Source of the DNA: a virus
Virus record (IMG/VR): IMGVR_UViG_3300044491_001942
Location: 1 to 20,396 of that record
DNA: 20,396 nt
Direction: 5' to 3' (one strand)
Position 1 is the first letter of the stretch; each line of letters starts with the position of its first letter. The notes beneath the pieces are model-generated. The model had not been told where the DNA came from and searched no databases. It saw only the letters and a program-made list of their open reading frames with translations. Both the position numbers and the translations under genes were made by a program. Shown here piece after piece: positions 2,290 to 20,396 of this stretch.

Positions 2290-2297
2290 TATTTATG
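2290..2297 (-). promoter_or_regulatory. T4-type late promoter box CATAAATA before gp13
   Basis: The minus strand reads CATAAATA, matching the NATAAATA late-promoter core of T4-like phages. The TAA stop codon of the upstream fibre gene lies inside the box. The leader to the gp13 ATG is about 20 bases. No hairpin is seen in this leader, unlike several other late promoters in the window. Confidence 0.65.
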
Positions 2298-4344: not shown

Positions 4345-4361
4345 GATGAATTATATTCCTT

Positions 4362-4814
4362 CTATAGATTGCCATGGTCAATAAAAATAAGAGAACCTGC
4401 TGGATTCATATGATCGTATGCTTCTCTTGCTGTAAAAACACCAAAAGCATCAACCGCTCCTGCAGAGTCCGTGGTACCATAATCTCCAACTGGATAATCC
4501 GGATCCACAGCTTCCAACGCGATTGCATCGTCAACATATTTCTTTGTCGCCGCGTCACTATCAGATTCAGGTACCCCAAGATTAACAATCTTGTTGTTAC
4601 TCATATCTATAGCACCAGTTACGGTGCCACCAGATAGAGATAGGTACGCTGAAGCCACCAGATCGGAGTCAACAAAACTTTTTACTTCATTTGAGGAATT
4701 TTTATAGAAAATGCGGCCGTCAACAAAGTTGATAGCCACTTCACCATACGTTAGAGCATCAGCACTAGGTACGTTACCAGATACTGATGATTTTTTTAGT
4801 AAGACCTTCGCCAT
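4362..4814 (-). CDS. Small fibre-like structural protein
   Basis: The 150-residue product begins MAKVLLKKSSVSGNVPSADA, followed by 'YGEVAINFVDGRIFYKNSSNEVKSFVDSD'. This N-terminal module (about residues 1-52) is shared with the gene at 10606-11733. Residues from about 58 to 97 ('LSLSGGTVTGAIDMSNNKIVNLGVPESDSDAATKKYVDDAI') form a repeat unit very common in phage tail fibres. The C-terminus ('AREAYDHMNPAGSLIFIDHGNL') shows no recognised domain. It is preceded by a late-promoter box and a perfect hairpin, and has a good AAGGA Shine-Dalgarno sequence 8 bases before the ATG. It is probably an adaptor or short fibre component; the assignment as a structural protein is more secure than any specific role. 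Confidence 0.72.
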   Translation of the reverse strand: MAKVLLKKSSVSGNVPSADALTYGEVAINFVDGRIFYKNSSNEVKSFVDSDLVASAYLSLSGGTVTGAIDMSNNKIVNLGVPESDSDAATKKYVDDAIALEAVDPDYPVGDYGTTDSAGAVDAFGVFTAREAYDHMNPAGSLIFIDHGNL

Positions 4815-4845
4815 ATCAAAATTCCTTAAAAAAGGTATTAGTTTA

Positions 4846-4875
4846 AAGTCTGGGATATAAAAATACCCCAGACTT
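4846..4875 (-). promoter_or_regulatory. Perfect 9-bp hairpin in leader of the 4814 gene
   Basis: AAGTCTGGG and CCCAGACTT pair perfectly around a 12-base loop. The hairpin begins 6 bases after the CATAAATA late-promoter box, so it would sit at or very near the 5' end of the late transcript. It also lies just after the stop of the 960-codon gene. There is no U-run after it in either direction, so a classical intrinsic terminator is less likely than an mRNA-stabilising or processing hairpin. Confidence 0.6.
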
Positions 4876-4881
4876 ACTCGT

Positions 4882-4889
4882 TATTTATG
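4882..4889 (-). promoter_or_regulatory. T4-type late promoter box CATAAATA
   Basis: The minus strand reads CATAAATA three bases after the stop of the gene at 4892-7765 and about 70 bases before the ATG at 4814. It matches the NATAAATA core and is positioned in one of the few intergenic gaps of the array. Confidence 0.65.
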
Positions 4890-4891
4890 AT

Positions 4892-7765: not shown

Positions 7766-7821
7766 TCGGTTCACTCTCCCCAGTTTGGCGTATATGCTTC
7801 GAAGTCATACTTAATTATTAT

Positions 7822-7829
7822 TATTTATA
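7822..7829 (-). promoter_or_regulatory. T4-type late promoter box TATAAATA
   Basis: The minus strand reads TATAAATA, a perfect match to the T4 late-promoter core, in the 82-base gap before the 957-codon fibre gene (ATG at 7765). The leader contains an imperfect hairpin (GTATG-a-CT, loop TCGA, AGCATA-t-AC) at about 7791-7811. Confidence 0.75.
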
Positions 7830-7849
7830 AAGGAACCCTAAAGCTCCTT
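7830..7849 (-). terminator. Hairpin at the end of the 7848-9134 gene, weak terminator candidate
   Basis: AAGGAGC pairs with GGTTCCTT over seven positions, including one G-U pair, with a six-base loop. It overlaps the TAA stop codon and is followed by only a short TTT before the late-promoter box. It could be a weak terminator or a 3'-end stabiliser. Confidence 0.35.
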
Positions 7850-9134
7850 ACGATGATGAAATACCGTATACAGTGTTTACAGCTGTACCAGCTGAGTTAT
7901 ATACTACCAACGATGAACCTGGAGTTGCAGTAACACCACCGGAGATGCTAATACTACCTGAGCCACTTAATGTACCAGTGAAACTATCACTTGCATCACT
8001 ACGCAAGAAACTTGATGCGTCTAAACCATCAACTTGATCTGCATTAATATTTAGGGCGTCAATATCTGCCTTGGTTTGGTCGGCTGTAGCGCCAGTTTCG
8101 ATACCTGCCAGTTTGGTTTGCTCTGCGTCACTAAACTCATTAGTATCAGAATTGCTTTCATAAGCGGTTTTAATCTGTGCAGCAGTCTGGTCGGCTGTAG
8201 CGCCAGATTCGATACCATCTAGTTTAGTACCATCGGCTGCAACGTCACGACCATCTACTGTGCCTGATACTACAATGTTACCAGCTACATTAATCTGTTT
8301 GTTGAAGTCCCACTCGTCATTAGTACCATCGTATGTGATACTAGCAGATGCACCATCTACTGTAATACCAGCACCGTTTGCAGCTGAAGCGTTTACAGCT
8401 CCACTAGCCAACACAATATTCAGATCATCAACAGTCATTGTTGCGGAGTTGATAGTTGTAGTAGTACCATCGACTTGCAAGCTACCAGCGATAACAACTG
8501 TACCTGTGTCATCTCCAACAGCAGCAGGGTCGATTGTAAATGTAGCTGGACCCGCAATGTAGCCTGTTGTTGTGATGTTACCAAATGTTCTGTTACCTGA
8601 TATACGAGTGTCTACTCTAGCGTCAGTGTAGTAAAGGTTTGTTGAACCTTCGCTCAAGTCGTCAGTATCAGCTGCTGTAATTCTAGCATCAGCTCTAGCG
8701 TCAGTGTAGTAGAGATTAGTTGAACCTTCACTCAAGTCGTCGGTATCAGCTGCTGCGATTCTAGCGTCTGCACTAGCGTTTGCTCTGGCGTCTGTGTAGT
8801 AAAGATTTGTAGAACCCTCACTTAGATCATCAGTATCAGCTGCTGTAATTCTAGCGTCTGCCCGAGCATCTGTATAGTAGAGATTAGTTGAACCCTCACT
8901 TAGATCGTCAGTGCTTGAAGCTGCGATTCTAGCGTCTGCTCTAGTGTCTGCTCTGGCGTCTGTATAGTAAAGGTTGCTACCTTCAGTTAGATCAGCTGTT
9001 GACTTTGCTCCAAAATCACTATCAAACCCCGAGTATTGGAGATCGACTGTGGTGTTAAATTCTAGGTTACCGGCACTATCTACGGTAAGATCATTTCCGA
9101 GCTGCGCAAGTTCATATGCTTTAGTTGTTGCCAC
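7848..9134 (-). CDS. Tail fibre-like protein with five NLYYTDAR repeats
   Basis: The 428-residue product starts at a GTG (MATTKAYELAQLGNDLTVDS); GGAG lies 7 bases before it and no better ATG is nearby. Residues about 45-185 carry five EGSxNLYYTDARADARI repeats, mostly of 26 residues. Next comes 'SGNRTFGNITTTGYIAGPATFTIDPAAVG' and the shared module '[26 protein letters not shown]...ITYDGTNDEWDFNK'. Then come two 'GTKLDGIESGATADQT'-type units, 'INADQVDGLDASSFLRSD', and the C-terminal signature 'SLVVYNSAGTAVNTVYGISSS'. The repeat part and the shared module are close to those of the next gene (9175-10602), so the two are duplicates whose C-terminal thirds have diverged. It has its own late-promoter box (9163-9170). 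Confidence 0.77.
   Translation of the reverse strand: MATTKAYELAQLGNDLTVDSAGNLEFNTTVDLQYSGFDSDFGAKSTADLTEGSNLYYTDARADTRADARIAASSTDDLSEGSTNLYYTDARADARITAADTDDLSEGSTNLYYTDARANASADARIAAADTDDLSEGSTNLYYTDARADARITAADTDDLSEGSTNLYYTDARVDTRISGNRTFGNITTTGYIAGPATFTIDPAAVGDDTGTVVIAGSLQVDGTTTTINSATMTVDDLNIVLASGAVNASAANGAGITVDGASASITYDGTNDEWDFNKQINVAGNIVVSGTVDGRDVAADGTKLDGIESGATADQTAAQIKTAYESNSDTNEFSDAEQTKLAGIETGATADQTKADIDALNINADQVDGLDASSFLRSDASDSFTGTLSGSGSISISGGVTATPGSSLVVYNSAGTAVNTVYGISSS
8610..9003 (-). repeat. Five in-frame NLYYTDAR repeats (78-90 bases each)
   Basis: The basic unit is 26 residues (DDLSEGSTNLYYTDARADAR plus ITAADT). Two units carry four extra residues (ADTR or ANAS). The copies are nearly identical as protein but differ at many third codon positions. 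Confidence 0.88.
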
Positions 9135-9162
9135 GATTAATCTCCATCGAGTTCTTTGCTGC

Positions 9163-9170
9163 TATTTATC
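9163..9170 (-). promoter_or_regulatory. T4-type late promoter box GATAAATA
   Basis: The minus strand reads GATAAATA in the 40-base gap between the 9175-10602 gene and the GTG start at 9134. It matches NATAAATA and leaves a leader of about 25 bases. Confidence 0.6.
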
Positions 9171-9174
9171 ACGC

Positions 9175-10602
9175 TTATGCAGCCGTGATACCATTAATTG
9201 TTTTTACTGCTGTGCCACCTGAATTGTACACGATCAACGTTGCTGCTGGTGTGGCTGTTACAGTGCCAAATGTAACATTACTAGAAGTGTTAACCGCCTG
9301 GTTTGCAGTGTATGTGGTGTAACCAGCCCCGTTAGTAAGCTCGTTGTTGTTAGTAATGTAGTTAGCGTTTGTAGCGCCTGTATATCCTAGATTAGCTAGT
9401 GTCAGAGTTCTAGTAGCTACTGTAGCGTTAGCATCTGTAACATGTCCTAAAGTATCTGTAGTAATATTTAAATCTAAATCTGATATTACTGTAGCACCTG
9501 TAAGAGCACCGGTATCAATAGCTGCATCATCTCCAGGATGTGTTGGGTGTACGTAGTTGTTAGCGCTTGCAGCAATACCATCTAGTTTAGTACCATCGGA
9601 TGCAACATTACGTCCATCTACAGTACCACTTACTATAACATTTCCAGCTACATGGATATTTTTATTGAAGTCCCATTCATCATTAGTACCATCGTATATG
9701 ATAGTAGCTGATGCACCATCAACGGTGATACCAGCGCCGTTTGCAGCTGAAGCGTTTACAGCTCCACTGGCCAATGTGATGTTAAGGTCGTCAACTGTCA
9801 TTGTAGCTGAATTGATTGTAGTTGTAGTACCATCAACCTGCAAGCTACCAGCGATCACGACCGTACCTGTGTCGTCTCCGACTGCGGCTGGGTCAATTGT
9901 AAATGTAGCTGGACCAGCAAGATAACCAGTTGTTGTGATGTTGCCAAATGTTCTATTGCCTGATAGACGAGTATCGACTCTAGCATCTGTATAGTAAAGA
10001 TTTGTAGAACCTTCACTTAGATCGTCCGTATCAGCTGCTGCGATTCTAGCATCAGCTCTAGCATCTGTATAGTAGAGATTAGTTGAACCTTCACTCAAGT
10101 CGTCAGTATCAGCTGCTGTAATTCTAGCATCAGCTCTAGCGTCTGTAAAGTATAGGTTTGTTGAACCTTCGCTTAGATCGTCGGTATCAGCTGCTGTGAT
10201 TCTAGCATCAGCCCTGGCGTCAGTGTAGTAAAGATTTGTAGAACCTTCGCTTAGATCGTCCGTATCAGCTGCTGCGATTTGAGCGTCTGCTCTAGCGTTT
10301 GCTCTGGCGTCTGTGTAGTAAAGATTTGTAGAACCTTCACTCAGATCGTCTGTGCTTGCAGCTGTAATTCTAGCGTCTGCTCTCGCATCTGTATAGTAAA
10401 GGTTTGTTGAACCTTCGCTTAGATCGTCGGTATCAGCTGCTGTGATTCTTGCGTCTGCTCTAGCGTCTGTATAGTAAAGATTAGTTGAACCCTCTGCCAC
10501 ATCATCTGTAGTTGAAACATCACTGGAACCTTCAGTGATCAACGTGTTGATCATTGCTGTTACATCTGCATCCAGATTGCTTTTCTTGATTTTTCCGCTC
10601 AT
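9175..10602 (-). CDS. Tail fibre-like protein with seven NLYYTDAR repeats
   Basis: The 475-residue product begins MSGKIKKSNLDADVTAMINT. Seven EGSTNLYYTDAR repeats (about residues 35-215) are followed by 'GNRTFGNITTTGYLAGPATFTIDPAAVG' and the shared '[26 protein letters not shown]...IYDGTNDEWDFNK' module, almost identical to the neighbour at 7848-9134. The C-terminal third differs: 'NYVHPTHPGDDAAIDTGALTGATVISDLDLNI' and 'ANLGYTGATNANYITNNNELTNGAGYTT', both familiar fibre motifs. It ends 'TLIVYNSGGTAVKTINGITAA'. It starts 3 bases after the previous stop with only a G-rich weak Shine-Dalgarno sequence, so coupling is likely. It is probably one of a set of related fibres or fibre segments; I cannot tell whether it assembles alone or with its neighbours. 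Confidence 0.77.
   Translation of the reverse strand: MSGKIKKSNLDADVTAMINTLITEGSSDVSTTDDVAEGSTNLYYTDARADARITAADTDDLSEGSTNLYYTDARADARITAASTDDLSEGSTNLYYTDARANARADAQIAAADTDDLSEGSTNLYYTDARADARITAADTDDLSEGSTNLYFTDARADARITAADTDDLSEGSTNLYYTDARADARIAAADTDDLSEGSTNLYYTDARVDTRLSGNRTFGNITTTGYLAGPATFTIDPAAVGDDTGTVVIAGSLQVDGTTTTINSATMTVDDLNITLASGAVNASAANGAGITVDGASATIIYDGTNDEWDFNKNIHVAGNVIVSGTVDGRNVASDGTKLDGIAASANNYVHPTHPGDDAAIDTGALTGATVISDLDLNITTDTLGHVTDANATVATRTLTLANLGYTGATNANYITNNNELTNGAGYTTYTANQAVNTSSNVTFGTVTATPAATLIVYNSGGTAVKTINGITAA
9965..10510 (-). repeat. Seven in-frame NLYYTDAR repeats
   Basis: There are seven units, six of 26 residues or nearly so and one with a four-residue insertion (ANARADAQI). 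One copy has YFTD in place of YYTD, and the first copy has VAEG in place of LSEG. Confidence 0.88.
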
Positions 10603-10605
10603 GGA

Positions 10606-11733
10606 TTATACCCCAATCTCTGTACGAATTGTTTTTACTGTGGTGTTGGCGTAGGTAGGTGACATCAACAATCTTACAGAATCACCACTGATATCCGCAT
10701 CTACTGTTCCAAGATCACTCTCGGTCCATACTTCAGCATAAGGTGAGATATAAGCAGTTGTGCCATCATGATTCAACAATATTTCTAAGCTATGATACCG
10801 AGAATTTTGTGTCATCTGCACAATATATTTTGTTGTGCGACTAGTTGTTTTGTTGTAAGAATCAATTGCTTGATTTGCTGCATCTGTTGAAAGTGATGTT
10901 GAATTGACGTCTCTAAGAAGCGTGGCTGCACCAAAGGAGTTAACAACAAGTGTGTCTCCTGAATTAGCAGCGTCACCTAATAGAGTAATTGACGATCCAT
11001 TAGTGGCTGTGAAGTCCAGACCGTTAGTGAGTCTTGCACCATTCCAAAATACTTCTAGTTTACCCACATCGTACGTAAGAGTATTGCTGTTAATATCAGC
11101 ACCATTAAGCGTTGTTGTTTCTGATGATGGTTGGTAAATGTATTGGAAATGTTCTTTAAGATTGACTGTAGATGTCTGCACTCGAATTGTGCGAACTTCA
11201 ATATCATCTCCTGTGATAGGAGCTGCAGCAAGATTAAGAGTTGATCCGTTTAACGAGTACGTATCGGTTTGTTGAACAGCACCGTTGATGAACACCAATG
11301 CGTGTTGTTCTTCGGCCGGTGAGGAAGTTAGTGTAAATGCAGTTGTAGAACTGTCTCCTGAGAATGTATCAAGGATAACAGTGTTTGATGCAGCAATTGG
11401 ATTACCTTGCCGTTGTGCAACATAATCACTATCGATAAGATTAATAACTTCCGAACTATCAACCGAATTATTCTGGATTAGAATAAGGGCGTCTGCACTA
11501 TCAATCGAATTATTGTTAATGAGCGTGATAGCGTCAGCACTATCGATAGAGTTCTGCTGGATCAGCGTAAGAGCATATGCCGAATCAACAAAATGTCTAA
11601 TTTCATCATTATTGTTCTTATAGTATAGTTTGCCGTCTTCATAGTTGATAGCCAGTTCACCGTACTGAATATCACTTGTGCCAGGCTTTCTACCAACAAC
11701 GGCGGATTTCTTTAGTTTAAATATAGTAGACAT
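10606..11733 (-). CDS. Tail fibre/baseplate-associated structural protein
   Basis: The 375-residue product begins MSTIFKLKKSAVVGRKPGTS, followed by 'IQYGELAINYEDGKLYYKNNNDEIRHFVDS', the N-terminal module also present in the gene at 4362-4814. Residues about 50-105 hold four 14-residue repeats (LIxxNSxDSADAI). Two beta-domain units follow: 'FSGDSSTTAFTLTSSP...LVFINGAVQQTDTYSLNG...GDDIEVRTI' and 'LEVFWNGARLTNGLDFTATNGSSITLL...GDTLVVNSFGA'. The C-terminus, 'TTKYIVQMTQNSRYHSLEILLNHDGTTAYISPYAEVWTES...GDSVRLL', resembles a C-terminal domain I recall from structural proteins of marine T4-like phages. The start is supported by AGGGA 6 bases upstream. It is probably a fibre or baseplate decoration; no enzyme motif is seen. 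Confidence 0.74.
   Translation of the reverse strand: MSTIFKLKKSAVVGRKPGTSDIQYGELAINYEDGKLYYKNNNDEIRHFVDSAYALTLIQQNSIDSADAITLINNNSIDSADALILIQNNSVDSSEVINLIDSDYVAQRQGNPIAASNTVILDTFSGDSSTTAFTLTSSPAEEQHALVFINGAVQQTDTYSLNGSTLNLAAAPITGDDIEVRTIRVQTSTVNLKEHFQYIYQPSSETTTLNGADINSNTLTYDVGKLEVFWNGARLTNGLDFTATNGSSITLLGDAANSGDTLVVNSFGAATLLRDVNSTSLSTDAANQAIDSYNKTTSRTTKYIVQMTQNSRYHSLEILLNHDGTTAYISPYAEVWTESDLGTVDADISGDSVRLLMSPTYANTTVKTIRTEIGV
11421..11588 (-). repeat. Four 42-base (14-residue) repeats
   Basis: Four tandem units of LTLIQQNSIDSADA type cover exactly 168 bases: two nearly exact, one with SVDSSEV, and the last degraded to 'INLIDSDYVAQR'. A heptad-like spacing of Ile/Leu would allow a short coiled stalk. 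Confidence 0.7.
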
Positions 11734-11757
11734 ATTAGATCCCTAAAAAGGTGTGGA

Positions 11758-11779
11758 GGAGGCTATAACAATAGCCTCC
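11758..11779 (-). promoter_or_regulatory. Perfect 9-bp GC-rich hairpin in leader of the 11733 gene
   Basis: GGAGGCTAT pairs perfectly with ATAGCCTCC around a 4-base loop. It begins 4 bases downstream of the TTTAAATA late-promoter-like box, so the late transcript would start almost at the hairpin. A CCTTTTTAG run follows 6 bases later on the minus strand, so read-through transcripts from the upstream gene could also use it as a weak terminator. Confidence 0.6.
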
Positions 11780-11783
11780 CTAT

Positions 11784-11791
11784 TATTTAAA
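11784..11791 (-). promoter_or_regulatory. Late-promoter-like box TTTAAATA
   Basis: The minus strand reads TTTAAATA, 7 of 8 matches to TATAAATA, directly after the stop of the 11792-13732 gene. Its position in one of the few gaps and the hairpin just downstream support it, although the second base departs from NATAAATA. Confidence 0.45.
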
Positions 11792-13732
11792 TTAGAACGT
11801 GCCACCGTCAAGTTCTTGAATATAGACATTACCTTTATCACCGATTTGGAACTGTCTGTTTGATCCAGCACCATCTGCAGAATCAGCATCAGCAAAACCA
11901 CCGAATCGGGAAACACCAACATTTGTAGTTGTGGCATATTCGTTGTGGAATGTGATTGTTCCTGCTGCATCATCGTATGTAATGTCTTGACCTGAAGAAT
12001 CATGTGCTAGGAATACGTTTCCAGCTAGATGATCTTCGATAACTTCATCAAGTCCAACACCATTAAGTTTGATTGCATCAGCTAATGCTGCAAACCCAAT
12101 GTCTAGTCCTTTGTTAAAGTCCCAAGTATCGTTCGCACCATCATATGTGATGGTTGCTTTTGTACCTGTATAACCAGCACCACCGACTGTGATACCAGCA
12201 CCGTCTGCTTCAGTAGCATCGGCTGCTGAGTCAGCCAGAACCATATTCAGGTCATTGACAGATACTGTAGTAGAGTTGATCGTGGTTGTAGTACCTTGAA
12301 CAGTAAGGTTACCACGGATAACCAAATCACCCGAGTCACCTACTGGAGCCGGATCAATATATAGAGTTGTGTTACCTGCTGTTGAACTGATTGTTGTACC
12401 ATCAAGTCTGATGTTATCAACAGTCAATCCTGTCATTGTTGTTTCGCCAGCTACGTTTAACGTACCGTCGATTACAACATTGTTGCGGAATTCTGCGGAG
12501 TCTGTTACGACAAGTTCACCGGTGAGGGTGGTGTTGCCAGTTACTGCCAATCCACCTGCGAGTGTAGCAGTGCTAGCTACGTCAAGAGTGCTACCCAGAT
12601 TCAGTGTACCATCAACTGATAGATTTGCACCAAATGAGGAGCTATCAGCAACAGTCAAGTTGGAGACTGAAATATCGGAGTCTAGGTGAACAATAACATC
12701 TAGACCTGATGCAACTGTATGGACATTCGTCCCACCCTGAACAGATAGAGACTGAGTAAGAAGGTCAACTGCTCCTGTACCTGTATCAGCAGCAGTGTTT
12801 AAAGTCGATGCAACCGCAACTGTGCCAGCTGAGTCAATGTGACCTTGCGCGTCTACTGTAAATACTGGAATTGTGGTTTGTGAACCGTATGTGCCAGCAG
12901 TAACACCAGATGTGTCATGGGTAAATGTTACTGTGTTGTCTGTAACAGTAGCTGTGAGGAAACTATCACCAGCAAATGTTAGTGTGTCGGATGTTGTTAC
13001 AGTGTCTGTACCAGTATCACCAGCAATCGAAAGATCGGTAGAGATGGATGCAGTACCAGCTGCTGTCAAGCGACCTTGTGCATCAACTGTGAATGTTGGA
13101 ATCGCAGTAGAAGAACCATAGTCACCAGCTGTAACTGCAGTATCATCTAGACTGATCGTAACATCGTTGTCTGTGACGGCTGTTGTAAGACCAGTACCAC
13201 CAGTAAACGAAATATCGGAGTCTTGAATGTTTACGGTGTCTGTACCAGTGTCACCGGTAAATGTTAGATTACCACCACCAACTTGTGCATCGACGTATGC
13301 TTTCGTAGCAGCGTCTTGTGCGCCGGATGGATCAGTAACATTAGTAATACGTGATGTGTTAACATCAACAACACCTGTACCATTTGGATCGAGGTTAATA
13401 TTACCGTTTGTATCTGTCGAACTGATAGTATTGCCATCAATGGTAATATTGTCGACGTTTAATACATCAATCTTACTATCTGCATCTACTACAATAGCAC
13501 TTGAAGCAGTAAGGGTTCCTGGGGTATGATCTAATTGATTCTGAAAATACTCACCACCGATAACAACAACACTTGTTGCGTTACCTGACCCATCATCGCC
13601 TTTACCGAAGTATAGCCGATCACCGCCGTTGGCAGCTGTACCGGTACCTTGTGAGTACGCGATTTCACCTGTCTTCAGAGATCCCGGCGCATTCGCCGTG
13701 GTAGATCTTTTAATTCTAATAATTGCCGCCAT
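11792..13732 (-). CDS. Tail fibre-like structural protein
   Basis: The 646-residue product begins [20 protein letters not shown], followed by 'TGEIAYS...[15 protein letters not shown]', an N-terminal module related to those of the other array genes. '[21 protein letters not shown]' is a common fibre unit. Three diverged units of about 70 residues follow ('[40 protein letters not shown]...[11 protein letters not shown]'). Next are '[51 protein letters not shown]'-type beta-helical repeats and the shared '[40 protein letters not shown]...NDTWDFNK' module. The end, '[13 protein letters not shown]', belongs to the GG(T/S)(Y/F) C-terminal class. Its ATG shares one base with the stop of the upstream gene (TAATG) and has GGAGG 9 bases before it. 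It looks like an elongated beta-helical fibre. Confidence 0.77.
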
Positions 13733-13998
13733 TAGTAGCTGCCTCCGTTAATATTTTGTTCTTCTAAGTCTAAAGACGCTTCCCAGACTCCTGAGCTAGA
13801 GCTATATACAAGTAAACTACCATTGACGGCTCCTTGTGTATTTATACCAGTAATATTGTTAATATTACCAGAGCCACCAGAAACGCGTCGAATTGGTGTT
13901 CCCACCACTACTTTTTTTACCTGGGTCGTTGATCCAGATGATACCACAGTTGCCCGTGTTGTTCCACCTGCTGTGACTGTTGCCGAATACCTTGCCAT
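13732..13998 (-). CDS. Small structural-region protein of unknown function
   Basis: The 88-residue product begins [20 protein letters not shown] and is rich in Ser, Thr, Gly and Val. '[17 protein letters not shown]' sits in the middle. The C-terminal part '[29 protein letters not shown]' combines a motif like the '(L/I)VVYNSAGTAV' tail and the GG(T/S)(Y/F) ending found in the large fibre-like proteins. AGGGA lies 4 bases before the ATG. It is translationally linked to the next gene (TAATG) and follows the BppU-like gene by 10 bases. It may be an adaptor or connector for the fibres. It is too short for a confident family call. Confidence 0.62.
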
Positions 13999-14008
13999 AA
14001 TGTCCCTG

Positions 14009-14359
14009 CTAGGTTACTGATGGTGTGACCTGAACTCTACCTTCAAGTACTCTTTCAATAATTGTGTCACCATTGCTGTCATCATAAGACAACTCTACAT
14101 CATAAACATAACGACCGTTTTTAAGAGCATTTGTCTGCGTATTTGTAAGGGAAATCGTGGCCACCCCATCAGTAGCGGGGCTAGCGACTATGCTACTAAA
14201 TACAATTGTATCAGCGCTGTCGCTCGTATAAGTTTTCTTTAGACTTGCAGAAACTGTATGTCCTGTGAGATCTTTTGTTGAACCGTCTTTGTCCACCAAA
14301 TGGATCTCAACAGCTACATCGCTGCCTTTGTCAATAGTAAATTCTTCGTACTGGGCCAT
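14009..14359 (-). CDS. BppU-like baseplate/fibre adaptor with immunoglobulin-like fold (predicted)
   Basis: The 116-residue product begins MAQYEEFTIDKGSDVAVEIH, followed by 'LVDKDGSTKDLTGHTVSASLKKTYTSD...ATISLTNTQTNALKNGRYVYDVELSYDDSNGDTIIERVLEGRVQVTPSVT'. The pattern of an opening beta strand, D-x-D-G, 'DLTG-T-V-A-x-L-K', 'L-T-x-x-Q-T-x-x-L' and 'GRYVYDV' is that of the N-terminal domain of phage baseplate upper proteins (BppU) and similar small proteins of marine T4-like phages. In BppU this domain attaches receptor-binding parts to the baseplate. The gene is the first of the leftward array, with a perfect TATAAATA box about 55 bases upstream and TAAGG 6 bases before the ATG. Attachment of the downstream fibres is an inference from this fold and position. 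Confidence 0.72.
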   Translation of the reverse strand: MAQYEEFTIDKGSDVAVEIHLVDKDGSTKDLTGHTVSASLKKTYTSDSADTIVFSSIVASPATDGVATISLTNTQTNALKNGRYVYDVELSYDDSNGDTIIERVLEGRVQVTPSVT

Positions 14360-14413: not shown

Positions 14414-14421
14414 TATTTATA
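14414..14421 (-). promoter_or_regulatory. T4-type late promoter TATAAATA at head of the tail-fibre array
   Basis: The minus strand reads TATAAATA, a perfect core match, about 55 bases upstream of the first array gene (ATG at 14359). It is the leftward promoter of the diverging control region and is likely to drive at least the 14359, 13998 and 13732 genes. Confidence 0.75.
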
Positions 14422-14526: not shown

Positions 14527-14562
14527 ATGTTCTGCGCTATAATAAATACACAGGAAATATGA
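14527..14562 (+). CDS. Putative 11-residue leader peptide (upstream ORF)
   Basis: An ATG at 14527 opens an 11-codon ORF, MFCAIINTQEI, ending in TGA at 14560-14562, which is 12 bases before the main ATG at 14575. It has a strong AGGAG Shine-Dalgarno sequence (14515-14519) with 7 bases of spacing, arguably better than that of the main gene. It lies on the predicted sigma-70 transcript but its ATG is upstream of the late-promoter box (14541-14548), so late transcripts would lack it. That would make leader control specific to early mRNA. A function in translational coupling or attenuation is inference; chance is possible for so short an ORF. Confidence 0.35.
   Translation: MFCAIINTQEI
14541..14548 (+). 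promoter_or_regulatory. T4-type late promoter box AATAAATA (rightward)
   Basis: The plus strand reads AATAAATA, matching NATAAATA, 26 bases before the ATG at 14575. If active, it would add late expression to the sigma-70-type early expression of the same gene. Confidence 0.45.
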
Positions 14563-14574
14563 GATAGGGACCCT

Positions 14575-16173
14575 ATGAAAATTTTGATGGTATATCCTAA
14601 CTTACCTTTAATGATGTCACCATCGATTGCGGTAGGGATATTCAACGCTATTAGTAAAGAGTTAAATGTAGAATATAGAGTGTTTGAGACCACTGAGTAT
14701 AGTGACGAGTACGAGAATAGACATATCAAACTTGCTTCGATTGGTGCCAATCGTGGTAACAAAGGTGACCTTCGAGATGATGAGATCTTTACCATCAAAC
14801 CTACTAGCGAGATTATACCTGACTTCGTTCGTACCGTTGAAGAGTATCAACCAGACATTCTGTTGATGAGTTTACAAGAAGACGTGTTTCACGTAGCTGA
14901 GATGCTACTTAGATCCATTGAGGATAAGAAGATTCCTCATCTTATTGGTGGTGTATTTTGTAACAATGCTCCAGAGTTAGTACTAAAGTCTCCATACATT
15001 AACAACATATGTACCTTTGAAGGTGAAGTAATGTATAGGAAAATCATTACTGCATTAAAAGAAGGTAAAGATATTACTAGTGTTGATGGTGTTATGTGGA
15101 AAGATGCTGATGGTAAGATTAAAAAGAATAAGCCAAACCCTCTTTGTAATATAAGCGATGTGACACCTGACTTTGGTTGTTTCGATAATAAGAGATGGCA
15201 AAGACCTATGGGTGGTAATCACTTCTATCGTGCAGTGAGTATGGAAACATACAGAGGTTGTCCATACAAATGTACTTACTGTAACTCTCCTACGAGCCGT
15301 GAGATTTCTAGCAAATTAAATCTTGGTAACTTTATGCGTCGAAAAGATGCTAAACAGATTGAAAAAGATTTAAAGTTCTACATAGATACAATTGGTCCAG
15401 ACTTTATTATGTTTATGGATGATAGCTTTCTTGCTAGACCTAAGCGTGAGATATTTGAGTTCTGTGAAATGTGGAGCAAGTATAATATACCATTTTGGTT
15501 TAACTCACGAATCGAAAACTGTCGACCTGAATATCTTCAAGCGCTCAAAGACGTTGGACTGTACCGTATGACGTTTGGTCTTGAGAGTGGTAACGAGAAA
15601 TATCGCAATGAGTACTTATTGCGTTCTGTGAAGAATGAAACATACTACGATTACTTTGATATTATTAATGATAGTAATATTCCCTATAGCTTAAATGTAC
15701 TTATAGGCATGCCATTTGAAACACGTGAAATGGTACTTGATAGTGCAAGAGTTATACGAAGAGCAAGAGGTTGGGATGGTTTAACGGTTTCTATGTTTCA
15801 ACCATATCATGGTACTAAACTAAGAGACATATCAGTAGAAGCAGGGTTCTTAGATCCAAGTGTTGTTATGTCAGGTGGGTTCTTAGATAGTTACTTCTTA
15901 GATATGCCTAAACCTTATTTGCAGAGAGAAGATGTTTTCTCTCTAACTAAAACGTTTCCTTTGTATTCGTATTATGAAGATGATATGTATGATACAATAC
16001 GTAAAGCAGAAACAGATGAAAAGCTATTCAATAGTCTGTTAGAGGATTACAAAGATAAGTTTTACCCTGGTAGTAATCAGATTGGTGGACGAGATAGGAT
16101 CGATCATATAGGTTTTGCTTGTGATAAACATGACCCTTCATCCACTTATAAATTTACCTCTGCCAATCAGTAA
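14575..16173 (+). CDS. B12-binding-type radical SAM protein
   Basis: The 532-residue product has the two-domain layout of the cobalamin-dependent radical SAM superfamily. Residues about 1-175 form a Rossmann-like B12-binding domain: 'MKILMVYPNLPLMMSPSIAVGIFNAI', 'YQPDILLMSLQEDVFHVAEMLL', 'IPHLIGGVFCNNAPELVL', 'NNICTFEGEVMYRKIITAL'. The radical SAM core follows, with C229-x3-C233-x2-C236 (GCPYKCTYC) for the 4Fe-4S cluster. 'FIMFMDDSFLARPKREIFEF', 'FWFNSRIENC', 'YRMTFGLESGNE' and 'NVLIGMPFETREMV' are typical strands of the core barrel. A classic base-off DxHxxG motif is not evident, which is common in this group. Such enzymes methylate or rearrange unreactive carbons in sugars, lipids or peptides. 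The gene stands alone on the plus strand and meets the facing operon tail to tail, with a 20-base overlap. AGGGA lies 4 bases before the ATG. The substrate is unknown. Confidence 0.88.
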   Translation: MKILMVYPNLPLMMSPSIAVGIFNAISKELNVEYRVFETTEYSDEYENRHIKLASIGANRGNKGDLRDDEIFTIKPTSEIIPDFVRTVEEYQPDILLMSLQEDVFHVAEMLLRSIEDKKIPHLIGGVFCNNAPELVLKSPYINNICTFEGEVMYRKIITALKEGKDITSVDGVMWKDADGKIKKNKPNPLCNISDVTPDFGCFDNKRWQRPMGGNHFYRAVSMETYRGCPYKCTYCNSPTSREISSKLNLGNFMRRKDAKQIEKDLKFYIDTIGPDFIMFMDDSFLARPKREIFEFCEMWSKYNIPFWFNSRIENCRPEYLQALKDVGLYRMTFGLESGNEKYRNEYLLRSVKNETYYDYFDIINDSNIPYSLNVLIGMPFETREMVLDSARVIRRARGWDGLTVSMFQPYHGTKLRDISVEAGFLDPSVVMSGGFLDSYFLDMPKPYLQREDVFSLTKTFPLYSYYEDDMYDTIRKAETDEKLFNSLLEDYKDKFYPGSNQIGGRDRIDHIGFACDKHDPSSTYKFTSANQ

Positions 16174-16465
16174 CATTCTTAGGTACATGACCTGAACACT
16201 TTCTCTGACATCTTGGAGGAGCCGTTTCATATTGTTCTATTGACTTGTAGAATGCTTGCCACTCTTCACTGAATAGAATTTCATCAATACTATCATTGTT
16301 TGATAGATGGAGATGCTCACTAAACAATGCTTCGTGGGTTTCATCCATAGTTTCGGTTGGAAGATCGTGTCTATCCATCCAACAGCAAGGAATAATAAAG
16401 CCCTGCGCGCTGTGACCAAAGTCTTTAGGGTTTGGCCTTGTGCATCTAGGATTAAAATTTGACAT
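16154..16465 (-). CDS. SPASM domain protein, detached C-terminal part of a radical SAM enzyme
   Basis: The 103-residue product carries only the auxiliary cluster part of a radical SAM/SPASM enzyme: C8 in 'PRCTRPNPKDFGH', 'IIPCCW' (C27, C28), 'SIDEILFSEEWQAFYKS', and 'CQRKC' (C86, C90). The same layout (CGRPF...VVPCC...IEEIWYGNEY...CKSC) forms the C-terminus of the intact enzyme at 18476-19426. It overlaps the upstream radical SAM core ORF by 14 bases in the +1 frame. GGGGAG lies 8 bases before its ATG, so it can be translated on its own. Either the enzyme is made as two polypeptides or a single-base insertion (natural or from assembly) split one gene of about 300 codons. Its stop lies within the end of the facing gene. 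Confidence 0.75.
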   Translation of the reverse strand: MSNFNPRCTRPNPKDFGHSAQGFIIPCCWMDRHDLPTETMDETHEALFSEHLHLSNNDSIDEILFSEEWQAFYKSIEQYETAPPRCQRKCSGHVPKNVTDWQR

Positions 16466-17066
16466 GAGTATTCTCCCCTGTTGGTACCATCCAAGGTTCG
16501 TCCGCTGGAAATCTTCCAGACCTTGTTATTAACATCTTGATATCGTGTGAGGCAGCCAGCATTTGAGCTTCGACTAGTCTATCTTCGTTGTATGAGAATA
16601 TAATGTATTGCCATCTAACATCCATCCCCATTTCTTTTCCCATCACCATCATTTCAAAAAGATGTTCACCATCTTGATTGATTCTGTACATGTGGCTTTG
16701 ATGTGGTAAACCATCTATTCCAAATACCCACGTAGCAGTTGGGTTGGCTTCGAAAGCTCGCTTGTACCATGCTCGAGGTCTTTGAGAGGCTGATGTTGCA
16801 ACCCATGCGTGCTTATCAGCATCATATATCTTCTTGAGAAAACCAGGAAAGTTGGGATGAAAGACTGGGTCAGATATATTACCACAGAAGATGAAGTTTT
16901 CAAACTTCTCTAATACCAAGTCAAACTCATAGTCAGTCATATCATGTCCGGGCACTTTCTTACCACTCGACAATAGATAGTGTCTAGTACATGCTTTACA
17001 TTGCAATGTGCATCTGTGTGTAATATCTAAGTTGATCTTTTTTCTATTGAAGAAATCTGCTTTCAT
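16452..17066 (-). CDS. Radical SAM core protein lacking its SPASM domain
   Basis: The 204-residue product begins MKADFFNRKKINLDITHRCT and has the radical SAM cluster motif C19-x3-C23-x2-C26 (CTLQCKAC) at the usual N-terminal place. 'FENFIFCGNISDPVFHPNFPGFLKKI' is the GGEP-like SAM-contact region, and 'WVFGIDGLPHQSHMYRINQDGEHLFEMM' is typical of SPASM-type enzymes. The ORF stops soon after 'LITRSGRFPADEPWMVPTG', exactly where the SPASM domain would begin; that domain is the overlapping ORF at 16154-16465. The start shares one base with the stop of the glycosyltransferase-like gene (TAATG). Radical SAM/SPASM enzymes often act on peptides or on alcohol groups of sugars. The substrate here is unknown. 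Confidence 0.82.
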   Translation of the reverse strand: MKADFFNRKKINLDITHRCTLQCKACTRHYLLSSGKKVPGHDMTDYEFDLVLEKFENFIFCGNISDPVFHPNFPGFLKKIYDADKHAWVATSASQRPRAWYKRAFEANPTATWVFGIDGLPHQSHMYRINQDGEHLFEMMVMGKEMGMDVRWQYIIFSYNEDRLVEAQMLAASHDIKMLITRSGRFPADEPWMVPTGENTHVKF

Positions 17067-18013
17067 TAATCATCCACCGAGTATACAACATTATTGACTA
17101 TAAAGGGAAACCCTTTAATAATACCTTCTAGCTCTAAAGGAGTATTAGAATGATAGAGATATCTCTGCGGTCTTTGTACAGCAGATTGCTTCTTGAAATC
17201 GTATTGACCTATCTTGGTTGTAGGAATACGTGCACCATAGTTATAGTTACCCCACATCGTTACTTGAACACTCTCTTCATGAAACTCACCATACTCCCAC
17301 CACTTACTAGGATGGCTCATATATGTGGGTGATCCATAACATACTGTTGGCACATTCATAATAGCTGCCATAAAGTATGTTGCACCTTGATAAGTAAAGT
17401 GCATCTTAGAATGTTTAAGCAACTCGGCTATCTCATCCTCTGACATAGAATAGTCTATCTCTTTTACAGGATAAGGTGATAACTTCTCTATGTTATCTAT
17501 AACATCAAGCTGACCAGTCTCTTTAGCATTCTCATATTTGTGAGAGTATCTTTTTAACAGTGCATCTGGAAACTTCTGATAAGTTATATAACCACCATCT
17601 CTCTTCGATTGTAGTTTGTCGTTCAATGGCCATATAACTTGAGTCATTATGGGTTGCTGTATCTCTACACCAAACAAATCATCATACTCATAGAAAGAAA
17701 ATATTACACCACACGATGGAGGCTGCCAGTTCTTAGCAAACCACATAATAGTATGATCAACAGTAGACTCATTTGCTTTGCTATACTTATGTCCTATTAG
17801 ACCTGTACGTATTAGAATGCATATCTTGTAAGGTGTAGTTACAATGCCTTCTTGCGCAAGACCTTGAATCTTGAATAATTCGTGGGAGAATCTACTTACG
17901 ATGAGAGCATGAGCTCCAGATGATTCTGCATCAAACTTAATTATACAGTTACTAGCATCTGCAACCTCACCAGTATTATCACAACCTAAGTATAGTGTTT
18001 CGAAATGTTTCAT
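17066..18013 (-). CDS. Glycosyltransferase-like protein (tentative)
   Basis: I start this gene at the ATG at 18013 (315 residues, MKHFETLYLGCDNTGEVADA), with AAAGG 6 bases upstream. A TTG two codons earlier is less likely. The gene overlaps the oxygenase gene by 35 bases. The C-terminal half contains 'ISMSEDEIAELLKHSKM'-like sequence (here 'YSMSEDEIAELL') and 'HFTYQGATYFMAAIMNVPTVCYGSP', which resembles the donor-binding part of GT-B glycosyltransferases of the heptosyltransferase kind, where a Gly/His-rich turn is followed by 'A-x-x-x-x-x-P-T-V-x-x-x-G'. I do not see a clear N-terminal acceptor-domain motif, so this is a fold-level guess. Its position between an oxygenase and radical SAM enzymes suggests a shared pathway on a sugar or glycosylated target. 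Confidence 0.55.
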   Translation of the reverse strand: MKHFETLYLGCDNTGEVADASNCIIKFDAESSGAHALIVSRFSHELFKIQGLAQEGIVTTPYKICILIRTGLIGHKYSKANESTVDHTIMWFAKNWQPPSCGVIFSFYEYDDLFGVEIQQPIMTQVIWPLNDKLQSKRDGGYITYQKFPDALLKRYSHKYENAKETGQLDVIDNIEKLSPYPVKEIDYSMSEDEIAELLKHSKMHFTYQGATYFMAAIMNVPTVCYGSPTYMSHPSKWWEYGEFHEESVQVTMWGNYNYGARIPTTKIGQYDFKKQSAVQRPQRYLYHSNTPLELEGIIKGFPFIVNNVVYSVDD

Positions 18014-18479
18014 TCTCAACCTTTGTAGGATCTACAAGAAAATAATTGTATGTGAATCGCTCTTCATCGCCTGCTCTATAGTCGTGCCACGTCACACCAG
18101 TTTCACCACAGAAGACCATTAGTCTATTGGGTTTCCACTCTACTTCAAACTCTTCATCCATATAGAACTTCGTGCCATGTGATACTTCAGGTCCGAGATA
18201 TATGATTGCAGACATAATCTTGAATTCAGCTTCGTCGTGGCGTTGAGATTGATAGTGAGGTGGAATTGCTGAAGTGTGAATGATTCTGCCTAGATCGTTA
18301 TGTCCTCTATGCTTTTCAAACTTACCAAGAAATTGAGCTATCTGAGGTGTGGGGTCAACATCAAAGCTATATCGTTTAACTGGATCGTTATGGTTTATCG
18401 TACCTTGCATTGACTTCTCAAGGATAGCATCAAAAACATCCTGAGGCAAGAAATCATCTTCTATAATAATCTGTGTCAT
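17979..18479 (-). CDS. 2-oxoglutarate/Fe(II)-dependent oxygenase
   Basis: The 166-residue product has the compact double-stranded beta-helix of phage 2OG-Fe(II) oxygenases (prolyl-4-hydroxylase-like). Likely iron ligands are H81 and E83 (in 'RHDEAEFK') and H132 (in 'TWHDY'), with R141 ('EERFTYNYFLV') as the 2-oxoglutarate-binding arginine. 'IMSAIIYLGPEVSHGTKFY' and 'WKPNRLMVFCGETGVTWHDY' are characteristic strands. The first ligand pair reads H-x-E rather than the common H-x-D. The reaction is expected to be hydroxylation of a small molecule, peptide or sugar. The start ATG overlaps the stop of the radical SAM/SPASM gene by 4 bases (ATGA), so co-translation is likely. T4-like marine phages often carry such genes, mostly with unknown substrates. 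Confidence 0.8.
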   Translation of the reverse strand: MTQIIIEDDFLPQDVFDAILEKSMQGTINHNDPVKRYSFDVDPTPQIAQFLGKFEKHRGHNDLGRIIHTSAIPPHYQSQRHDEAEFKIMSAIIYLGPEVSHGTKFYMDEEFEVEWKPNRLMVFCGETGVTWHDYRAGDEERFTYNYFLVDPTKVENETFRNTILRL

Positions 18480-19426
18480 ATTCTAAATTGTTCCATAGTA
18501 AATGTTGATCCTGTCAAGGTATTATAATCAGCATTGAAGTTAGACCATACCAAGGCTTCTGGTGCTTCATATAGCATATCACAACTCTTGCAATAATCAA
18601 TAGAATCAAAGTCGTGCATCTCATGTGCTTTACGCAGCTTGTTATACTCATTACCATACCAGATCTCTTCAATAGTCTGATCAGATAAGTGACCCATAAC
18701 AGCCTTACTATCTTGACCTAGAACCATACAACATGGTACAACAGCACCAGACTTACCACCATTGCCACCAGCTCTTACAATAAGATCGGGTGAGAAAGGT
18801 CGGCCACAGCTACGCTTCTTTTTACCAAATCTCCAATCAACATCAAGCTGCCCAGACCAGTTATGCATTTTCCAAATGGATGCTTTAATCCCTGGAACAT
18901 GATCAATCCAGTTCTTTTGATATTGCTCTACTTCATAGTCCTGCTGTTCGTTATCTAACACGAGGGAATAAGACCCAATATTGCCACCATATTCAATAGC
19001 GGCGTTTGCATTATCCATAACCTCATAGAAGGCAGGTTTACTCATCTGCTCTTCGTACTTCTCAGGATTGTATCCAGTAACTGAGATACGAGCAAAGTGC
19101 ATGCCAGCATCGATAGTCTTTTTCATTAGATCGTCTTTGAACCAGAAGCCGTTGGTGATAAACGACATCTTGAAACCACGATCGGTTCCAGCTTTAACAA
19201 AGTCTGGCAGCTTCTTGTTCATAGTAGGTTCGCCAGAGCCTTCAAGATAGATCTCTTTGACTTTAGAATCCTGCAACTGATCTAATGTGTTGAGGAACAT
19301 CTTGTAGTTAATCATCCGTCTAAACGATTTCTCTCTACCATTGTCAAACGAGTGGGGACAGAAGGAACAACTGTAGTTACATGAGCCGCAGATCTCTATT
19401 ACAGCTTTTTCAATAGGTAGCGGCAT
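18476..19426 (-). CDS. Radical SAM/SPASM domain enzyme (intact)
   Basis: The 316-residue product has an N-terminal cluster motif C16-x3-C20-x2-C23 (GSCNYSCSFCPH). 'VKEIYLEGSGEPTMNKKL' contains the GGEP-like motif, 'FKMSFITNGFW' follows, and a C-terminal SPASM domain carries 'RSCGRPF', 'VVPCCMV' and 'CKSCD' cysteines for auxiliary clusters. 'GHLSDQTIEEIWYGNEYNKLRKAH' is the usual link between the SPASM cysteine groups. The family includes peptide-maturing enzymes and dehydrogenases of sugar or aminoglycoside alcohols. The ATG has a strong GGAGG site 8 bases upstream, preceded by the palindrome at 19443-19454. It starts the tightly overlapping run of enzyme genes ending at 16154. It is probably homologous to the split enzyme at 16154-17066, but the two are clearly diverged. 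Confidence 0.88.
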   Translation of the reverse strand: MPLPIEKAVIEICGSCNYSCSFCPHSFDNGREKSFRRMINYKMFLNTLDQLQDSKVKEIYLEGSGEPTMNKKLPDFVKAGTDRGFKMSFITNGFWFKDDLMKKTIDAGMHFARISVTGYNPEKYEEQMSKPAFYEVMDNANAAIEYGGNIGSYSLVLDNEQQDYEVEQYQKNWIDHVPGIKASIWKMHNWSGQLDVDWRFGKKKRSCGRPFSPDLIVRAGGNGGKSGAVVPCCMVLGQDSKAVMGHLSDQTIEEIWYGNEYNKLRKAHEMHDFDSIDYCKSCDMLYEAPEALVWSNFNADYNTLTGSTFTMEQFRI

Positions 19427-19442
19427 TTACTTTCCTCCAGAC

Positions 19443-19454
19443 GGTCTATAGACC
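19443..19454. other. Perfect 12-base palindrome before the radical SAM/SPASM gene
   Basis: GGTCTATAGACC is a perfect palindrome, and the adjoining minus-strand AGACC-G-GGTCT overlaps it, so alternative hairpins can form just upstream of the GGAGG ribosome site of the gene at 19426. A second inverted repeat (CTCTT-TTTA-AAGAG) lies at 19516-19529 in the same gap. They may act as regulatory or mRNA-processing structures, or as an operator. Confidence 0.4.
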
Positions 19455-19544
19455 CGGTCTATTTCTTTTCTTTTTCACCTGATCTGCTTCATATATGAAT
19501 ACACTTCCTTCTTGTCTCTTTTTAAAGAGCATATTCCATCTCAT
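19446..19544 (-). CDS. Possible 32-residue small protein
   Basis: An ORF of 32 codons begins MRWNMLFKKRQEGSVF and includes 'IYEADQVKKKRNRPGL', ending at TAG about 20 bases before the start of the radical SAM/SPASM gene. It fills most of the 131-base gap between that gene and the SGNH gene. The peptide is strongly charged, with an amphipathic look rather than random sequence. No convincing Shine-Dalgarno site precedes the first ATG; an internal ATG at codon 5 has GAGATGGA before it. It may be a small phage protein, or speculatively a peptide substrate of the adjacent SPASM enzyme, but no leader/core pattern is visible. Chance ORF is the main alternative. Confidence 0.33.
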   Translation of the reverse strand: MRWNMLFKKRQEGSVFIYEADQVKKKRNRPGL

Positions 19545-19557
19545 AATAAGCAATAAC

Positions 19558-20331
19558 TTAATGTAAGTCCACTTGTTCATTGAACCAATCTCCAATTAAT
19601 TTATGTCCTTTTGCATTAGGGTGCAGGTCGACCTTACTAACAACAAAGTCGTAATAATCCTTGCGTGGTCGCATTAGCAAATGTTCCACGTTCGTTCCAC
19701 CCAGTTCTTCGAAGAATGGGAAACCTAAAAAAGTATCGCTTGAGTTTTGATACATCTCTTGAAAGATCTTATTTTTTATAATCTCTCCAGTAGCAATTTC
19801 AATGAAGGGCCAAGGGATTGTATGTACTAGCTGAAACACTACTAGCTTTATTCCTCTGCCTTCGCAAACTTCTTGAAGAGTTCTCAACTTCAAGATGGTA
19901 GCATTAACGATACTATGTATCAAGTTCCAATTACCAATTTCCTCTAGGGATATTAACGAATTCATGTAATTGACAAATCCGTGTGCAGCCTCTATAGATG
20001 CTAAATCCCTCTCCGATCTTTCATTGTGGGGTTTTTTACGAAGCTCTGCATCACGCGCCCACAACGCAGGATGGATTTCGGTTCCGTGAAGAGGAAATCT
20101 AGACCACTCAGTAAGTGCACAGACCACAGTTGTGATATCGGGGTTGGTATAAATTTGCTCTAAAGCCTTGTCGATTATCGTTTGGTTACTGTAACCACTA
20201 AAACCTATCGATACTACACGCTGATTGGTGTTGATATGATCATACCATTTAGGCCAACTGCAATCCATCTCAGGATGAAAATTGCTTCGGAAATTAGGAT
20301 TCGTCCAAGAGCAGCCGCTGACAAGTATCAT
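19558..20331 (-). CDS. SGNH/GDSL-hydrolase-like protein
   Basis: The 257-residue product begins MILVSGCSWTNPNFRSNFHP. 'GCSW' stands at the GDS block, with S8 as the candidate nucleophile. 'VSIGFSGYSNQTIIDKAL' matches block II (Gly), and 'TVVCALTEWSRF' takes the place of the block III GxND. 'VDLHPNAKGHKLIGDWFNEQ' is block V, with D235 and H237 as the other catalytic residues. SGNH enzymes remove or transfer acyl groups on sugars, lipids or peptidoglycan. Proteins with this 'SGCSWT' opening occur in marine phages without known function, and some may lack activity. There is no signal peptide. The start overlaps the stop of the preceding, similar gene by 4 bases (ATGA). The product probably acts with the enzyme operon downstream. 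Confidence 0.75.
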   Translation of the reverse strand: MILVSGCSWTNPNFRSNFHPEMDCSWPKWYDHINTNQRVVSIGFSGYSNQTIIDKALEQIYTNPDITTVVCALTEWSRFPLHGTEIHPALWARDAELRKKPHNERSERDLASIEAAHGFVNYMNSLISLEEIGNWNLIHSIVNATILKLRTLQEVCEGRGIKLVVFQLVHTIPWPFIEIATGEIIKNKIFQEMYQNSSDTFLGFPFFEELGGTNVEHLLMRPRKDYYDFVVSKVDLHPNAKGHKLIGDWFNEQVDLH

Positions 20332-20396
20332 TTTAAATCCTTAACGTGTTTATTAAACCAATCACCGATATATTTATTACCCTTTTTATTAGGGTG
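20328..20396 (-). CDS. SGNH-hydrolase-like protein, paralogue (C-terminal fragment at window edge)
   Basis: Only the last 22 codons are inside the window. They read HPNKKGNKYIGDWFNKHVKD plus two residues and closely match the C-terminus of the next gene (HPNAKGHKLIGDWFNEQVDLH), including the catalytic block V histidine. The TGA stop overlaps the ATG of the neighbouring SGNH gene by 4 bases. This is therefore a tandem paralogue, cut by the window edge. Confidence 0.7.
   Translation of the reverse strand, partial: HPNKKGNKYIGDWFNKHVKDLK

Follow-up and report, generated by a model that had tools for sequence, protein, structure and literature searches.

The right-hand end of a 20,396-base virus record (IMG/VR IMGVR_UViG_3300044491_001942, referred to at its full length as the window) carries, beside an array of tail-fibre genes, three radical S-adenosylmethionine (SAM) systems, a 2-oxoglutarate (2OG)-Fe(II) oxygenase, a GT-B fold protein and two SGNH-hydrolase-like proteins (Table 1). 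We consider that these genes probably form a sugar-tailoring cassette, expressed late and located within the hypervariable host-recognition island of a marine T4-like phage. The radical SAM enzymes would remodel a sugar ring, whether in a nucleotide sugar or in one that is already in place: the intact radical SAM/SPASM enzyme, which is BtrN-like, by dehydrogenation, elimination or epimerisation, an AprD4-like enzyme by removal of a hydroxyl through diol dehydration, and a split radical SAM/SPASM pair by one further step. The 2OG oxygenase could hydroxylate the sugar or its acceptor, its GT-B partner would transfer the sugar, and the SGNH proteins may add or remove acyl groups. An earlier note, made from the DNA sequence without database searches, had placed these open reading frames (ORFs) and assigned them to families; the genes, coordinates and strands are as it described, and its family calls hold at the level of motif, profile or fold. 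The overlaps of 4, 35, 1 and 14 bases that it gave for the leftward genes are also right, with the 35 bases being counted from the ATG at 18013 of the GT-B gene (41 from the TTG at 18019).

The case for sugar chemistry is built on the profile relatives of the radical SAM proteins (BtrN, BlsE, DesII and AprD4), on the GT-B fold, and on the DegT, carbamoyltransferase and glycosyltransferase genes found with the cassette in relatives. The CxxxCxxC motif of the radical SAM superfamily is present in the core of all three window systems and is kept in their relatives, with Pfam scores above cut-off for two of the three. In the intact enzyme the SPASM domain is also above cut-off (44.3 bits). A PDB profile search with this protein puts BtrN first (E 5e-15), followed by BlsE and DesII among the solved structures, all of which act on sugars or aminocyclitols. 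It falls far below any equivalog cut-off, however; the domain layout is common, and a shared reaction would be a prediction from sequence. Viral homologues 64–86% identical to it were found at 20 loci, and in a maximum-likelihood tree it falls within a clade of 13 rows (support 98/99). Phage C48C1 is the sole known isolate with a clear relative (39%). The largest set of non-phage relatives, 38–46% identical, comes from SAR11 genomes, where the homologues sit among nucleotide-sugar epimerase and DegT genes (two loci annotated). Tandem radical SAM/SPASM paralogues are also seen in SAR11 genomes (L071:768-2766 and L078:1-1852; L and G numbers are our handles for related loci and records).

For the AprD4-like protein, whose cluster motif CPYKCTYC begins at residue 229, the top solved relative in a PDB profile search is AprD4 itself (6fd2, the apramycin C3' diol dehydratase; E 1e-25), a radical SAM diol dehydratase that works on an aminoglycoside (PMC5461906). 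The window protein nevertheless lies outside the AprD4 equivalog NF033070, scoring 47.8 against a cut-off of 500 bits, and no AprD3-like reductase partner was identified for it. It had earlier been called a 'B12-binding type'. This stands as a description of architecture and not as a statement about cobalamin, because the DxHxxG cobalamin motif is missing from all 16 aligned sequences (the window protein and 15 relatives); the Pfam B12-binding score, at 22.8 bits, is below the 32.1 cut-off. Some cobalamin radical SAM enzymes lack DxHxxG. The motif gives no support to the label of class B cobalamin-dependent radical SAM methylase, a class with a B12-binding domain carrying DxHxxG. Among other loci, one has a tandem pair of AprD4-like genes with a 4-base overlap and ~46% identity to the window protein (L046:6307-9626), and another has a KdsB-like cytidylyltransferase gene directly after its AprD4-like gene (L045:5266-7676), which hints at CMP-linked sugars.

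The third system is divided between a radical SAM core polypeptide and a separate SPASM polypeptide, the latter with conserved cysteines and a Pfam score below cut-off. Relatives of the core are 33–45% identical, each with an adjoining SPASM ORF; no PDB relative of the core was found by sequence. Since separate core and SPASM ORFs recur at other loci (L004, L006 twice, L012 and L020) with varied junctions and conserved cysteines, a frameshift or sequencing artefact can be rejected. A stand-alone SPASM polypeptide conserved beside its radical SAM core should be of interest to enzymologists.

Structure prediction, which the earlier note had suggested as a check, supports its GT-B-like and 2OG calls. 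The predicted GT-B protein comprises two Rossmann-like domains in the GT-B arrangement and most resembles the GT9 heptosyltransferases WaaC (VIA Z 10.4, 3.8 Å, 197 residues across both halves) and TibC (Z 9.2), likenesses of fold at Z 9–10 that go with only some 10–14% identity and no GT9 sequence match. On the strength of this model it is likely to be a glycosyltransferase. The 2OG model has a prolyl-4-hydroxylase (P4H)-type double-stranded β-helix (Z 14.9 to PHD1 and 14.8 to the P. putida P4H) with the matching putative iron triad, H81-x-E83 and H132, and the distal R141; the HxE form is shared with its closest relatives and differs from the HxD of L021 and L022. An annotation as endonuclease V, the title of phrog_274, is ruled out by this fold and motif.

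The P4H-type fold raises the possibility of a narrower form of our proposal, in which the virion itself is decorated: the 2OG enzyme would hydroxylate a residue of a fibre or baseplate protein, the GT-B enzyme would glycosylate the new hydroxyl with a sugar prepared by the radical SAM enzymes, and the cassette would adjoin the fibre genes because the fibres are its substrate. The matches of the 2OG model at Z ~14–15 include a viral collagen prolyl hydroxylase, the GT-B fold also resembles the protein glycosyltransferases TibC and POMGNT2, and the GT-B and 2OG genes, which overlap in the window, are fused in a related phage, where a single protein (L014 4638-6152) contains GT-B (residues 6-232) and 2OG (336-499) parts. 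Yet the fibres of the window are not collagen-like, small molecules are also substrates of P4H-fold enzymes (PolD, 9blq, is among the structure matches), and the best GT-B match is WaaC, a lipopolysaccharide (LPS) heptosyltransferase. We regard decoration of the virion as possible, though short of an even chance.

The genes recur together in other phages, so that the conserved co-occurrence for which the earlier note had asked is largely borne out. Within 6 kb of the radical SAM/SPASM gene, 13 of 23 relatives have a GT-B gene, 11 an AprD4-like gene and 10 a 2OG gene, with fibre genes nearby in 10, counts that include close-kin contigs and are not independent events. About 10 other phages have both the radical SAM/SPASM and the 2OG gene, and nearly all of these also have GT-B, mostly beside a tail-fibre operon. 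In L004-L007, L010 and L012/L013 the order is radical SAM/SPASM, 2OG (in some after one small gene), GT-B and fibre operon; in another set (L014, L015, L017, L022, L030, L040-L044, L051, L055, L058 and L060) the radical SAM/SPASM gene is followed by the AprD4-like gene. Where a record has both of these, they are directly adjacent on the same strand in 12 cases out of 13, mostly with a 4-base overlap (the exception is G025). In the larger records the families are confined to this locus: the 2OG gene of G008, G009 and G016 (85, 160 and 157 kb) occurs at the cassette only, as do all GT-B copies of G008, G009, G016 and G018; G012 has a weaker 2OG match outside its cassette. Single-sequence scans of viral sequences with the GT-B and AprD4-like proteins returned nothing, although alignment-based scans found relatives of both. 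Among known isolates, none of the phage records searched matched the 2OG protein or the GT-B protein.

What is added to this core varies. Genes for a Nol-like carbamoyltransferase, a PseC/LegC-like DegT aminotransferase and SGNH proteins occur in relatives (SGNH relatives lie within the cassettes of L003, L012, L022 and L030), as do N-terminal twitch/SPASM radical SAM enzymes (NF033640, 276 bits), further split radical SAM pairs, and GT8-like, GT25 and KdsB-like genes; many of these additions are encoded on the other strand. In the window it is the AprD4-like gene that stands apart. It is inverted relative to the rest of the cassette, has its own late-promoter match, and has a G+C content of 0.361 against 0.37–0.41. 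Its protein is 70% identical to the L040 homologue and groups with L040, L041, L043 and L044 (support 100/100) in a maximum-likelihood tree, whereas the radical SAM/SPASM proteins of those phages are only 41–44% identical to that of the window; and the gene is absent from the searched records of nine sister-clade members of the window's radical SAM/SPASM enzyme, including the 160-kb G009. Descent of the whole set, AprD4-like gene included, as a single inherited operon is ruled out by this conflict and absence. The comparison indicates that the window most likely acquired this gene in a separate event, with another phage lineage as the source, and the set, as read from these sequences, is a recombining, modular, mix-and-match cassette.

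These observations also bear on whether the genes work together at all. An insertion hotspot could gather unrelated metabolic genes without joint function, and both the AprD4-like gene, mosaic in origin and inverted, and the known hypervariability of the island (PMC7029224) are in keeping with such unlinked cargo. The same families, however, recur together in divergent phages and even within one fused protein, and we think unlinked cargo improbable. Scattered and independently gained genes, which according to the earlier note would make a joint pathway unlikely, describe the AprD4-like gene and not the others. The joint pathway it proposed thus keeps the support of a conserved neighbourhood and of sugar chemistry, and loses the notion of one fixed pathway comprising every gene.

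The cassette is likely to be expressed late, together with virion genes, as judged by matches to the T4-type late promoter that precede both fibre-operon heads and most operons headed by radical SAM/SPASM genes. All 12 of the 12 fibre-operon head genes have the core NATAAATA at 10–120 bases upstream, where the background rate is 2%. Of the radical SAM/SPASM genes, seven of the nine that come after a divergently oriented gene are also preceded by it, and none of the 15 others (Fisher exact 1e-4), although this split was chosen after inspection and some of the loci are close kin. Across the whole window TATAAATA with one mismatch is no more frequent than expected by chance, and is informative only by its position upstream of genes.

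What would such a cassette act on? A free metabolite or a peptide is a less likely target than a surface glycan determined by the phage, either on the virion or on the envelope of the infected cell, and the two surfaces seem about equally likely. Decoration of the virion fits with the late promoters, with a place next to the fibres and with the pairing of P4H-type and GT-B enzymes: the cassette is frequently found before the fibre operon, with the same type of late promoter, even if it was not seen beside these fibre genes in L040, L017 and L021. Remodelling of the host envelope, in which the cassette would alter the infected cell's O-chain or capsule so as to block superinfection, is likewise a tentative but real candidate. 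It fits because SAR11 homologues lie within polysaccharide loci and because the same role has been proposed for glycosyltransferases of the pelagimyophage island (PMC7029224), and the WaaC-like fold of the GT-B protein points the same way; against it, late promoters would come late for superinfection exclusion, and the window yielded neither an O-antigen flippase nor a membrane acyltransferase. The most specific version, in which tail fibres are decorated with a deoxy- or dehydro-sugar made by the radical SAM enzymes, with the P4H-type oxygenase making the fibre hydroxyl and its GT-B partner (fused to it in one phage) glycosylating it, is speculative and rather doubtful; if true, receptor-binding proteins would vary in their chemistry and not in sequence alone.

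The earlier note had also named a modified peptide as a product. SPASM enzymes often mature peptides, and there are sub-cut-off NCBIfam scores to peptide maturases, as would suit maturation of a phage peptide by the SPASM and 2OG enzymes in the manner of ribosomally synthesised and post-translationally modified peptides. This is very unlikely, because no conserved short precursor gene was seen adjoining the radical SAM genes (ORFs under 60 residues were not systematically searched) and because the companions are sugar genes, namely glycosyltransferase, DegT and carbamoyltransferase; most of the radical SAM genes, moreover, share a few bases with the genes beside them.

Several points nevertheless weigh against a sugar-tailoring cassette. 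The radical SAM/SPASM enzyme also scores well against peptide and metallo-maturase families (W_rSAM_matur, 82 bits), and the 2OG protein has the fold of the prolyl hydroxylases, a group in which protein substrates are common. By sequence, no family (with no meaningful Pfam hit) and no solved structure in the PDB matched the GT-B protein. The late-promoter calls are consensus matches, and, given the mosaic origin of the AprD4-like gene, these enzymes may not all belong to a single pathway. The proposed reactions, like the sequence in which they occur and the target, are deduced.

The setting is in part already known, and 'candidate new', the description in the earlier note, is too strong for the island as such. 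In pelagimyophages a host recognition cluster, a hypervariable island with tail fibres between VrlC and gp14, is on record with glycosyltransferases and radical SAM cassettes by the fibres (PMC7029224). The window resembles it in lying beside tail fibres and near gp14 in a marine T4-like phage, with gp13, gp14, gp15 and fibres all present; the VrlC side falls beyond the contig. The accessible part of that report, on the other hand, only mentions the radical SAM cassettes, without the set of radical SAM/SPASM, AprD4-like and 2OG/GT-B genes, the split SPASM or the fusion. The LPS gene clusters of large cyanophages (PMC3037559) are also phage-borne sugar genes of T4-like marine phages that carry carbamoyltransferases and 2OG oxygenases, but they lie near hli03 or phoH by tRNAs, whereas the cassette described here is beside fibres and rich in radical SAM genes. 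The enzyme combination, the split SPASM and the GT-B/2OG fusion were not found described in the accessible portions of the open-access full-text literature.

The phage origin of the window is shown by its gp13, gp14 and gp15 homologues and by the tail fibres between these and the cassette; from left to right it comprises the gp15, gp14 and gp13 homologues, the leftward fibre array, the fibre-assembly family gene and the cassette. No tRNA was found in it. The contig alone does not fix the host, since the best known relatives of its gp14 homologue are from phage C48C1 (47%), Methylophilales phage Melnitz (42%) and cyanophage P-RSM6 (40%), with HTVC008M at 37%. The 160-kb relative G009, whose radical SAM/SPASM enzyme is 81% identical to that of the window, has a CsgG gene and no psbA, as expected of pelagimyophages, in which CsgG is reported to be widespread (PMC7029224), and from this we infer a SAR11-like host. 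Phages resembling those that infect SAR11, whose cells are some of the most numerous in the sea, would have next to their host-recognition genes an exchangeable kit for sugar chemistry that is rich in radical SAM enzymes. As a glycan pathway encoded by a phage the cassette would be exceptionally elaborate, and it could supply new radical SAM enzymes that act on sugars.

Table 1. Cassette genes, late-promoter matches and neighbouring genes of the window
Feature	Position	Strand	Evidence
AprD4/HpnJ-like radical SAM protein, Rossmann-like N-terminus ('B12-binding' architecture)	14575..16173	+	532 aa; Pfam Radical_SAM 4e-16
Separate SPASM polypeptide of split system	16154..16465	-	SPASM 16.6 bits, under cut-off; Cys kept in relatives
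Radical SAM core polypeptide of split system	16452..17066	-	CTLQCKAC; C19xxxCxxC; phrog_21308 8e-06
GT-B fold protein, GT9 heptosyltransferase-like, likely glycosyltransferase	17066..18019	-	AlphaFold model pLDDT 83; ATG at 18013, TTG at 18019
2OG-Fe(II) oxygenase, predicted prolyl-4-hydroxylase-type fold	17979..18479	-	Model pLDDT 81; no Pfam match
Radical SAM/SPASM enzyme, BtrN/BlsE/DesII-like	18476..19426	-	Pfam Radical_SAM 4e-16, SPASM 2e-11
SGNH-hydrolase-like protein	19558..20331	-	GDSL 13.8 bits, under cut-off
Second SGNH-like paralogue, C-terminal end, cut by contig end	20331..20396	-	Last 22 codons, HPNKKGNKYIGDWFNKHVKDLK
T4-type late-promoter match, 34 bases upstream of AprD4-like gene	14541..14548	+	AATAAATA; background rate 2%
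Late-promoter match upstream of SGNH-headed leftward genes, inside cut-off paralogue	20371..20378	-	AATAAATA
Late-promoter match upstream of first tail-fibre operon gene	14414-14421		TATAAATA
First tail-fibre operon gene, L-shaped tail fibre assembly family, usual cassette neighbour	14009..14359	-	phrog_3304 2e-16, phrog_1084 8e-22
Tail-fibre gene array, context of cassette	2293..13998	-	
gp13 homologue	1517-2269		phrog_211
gp14 homologue	635-1513		phrog_460
gp15 homologue	3-632		phrog_227

The complete SGNH-like protein has GCS at residue 6, DLHP at 235 and invariant G46 and N49, and thus the Ser, Gly, Asn and His blocks of SGNH hydrolases; GCS or GDS and DxHP occur in nine of nine sequences. 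The second paralogue claimed earlier is real, with only its end on the contig.

Some further features of related loci may be mentioned. A GT-B homologue occurs in another phage context (L034:7974-8816, and also L033 and L035-L037), with genes for proteins of ~670 residues nearby and no match to the cassette. In L040 (6137-7048), L042, L043 and L060 a protein of 293–342 residues, without a Pfam match and not GT-B by profile, is encoded just upstream of the radical SAM/SPASM and AprD4-like pair, and at L055:9599-10675 a UvdE-like UV-endonuclease gene comes straight after the radical SAM pair. Within the window's own fibre array, three adjoining genes (4892-10602) share a 78–90 bp tandem repeat coding for DTDDLSEGSTNLYYTDARADARI; they are paralogues and may recombine.

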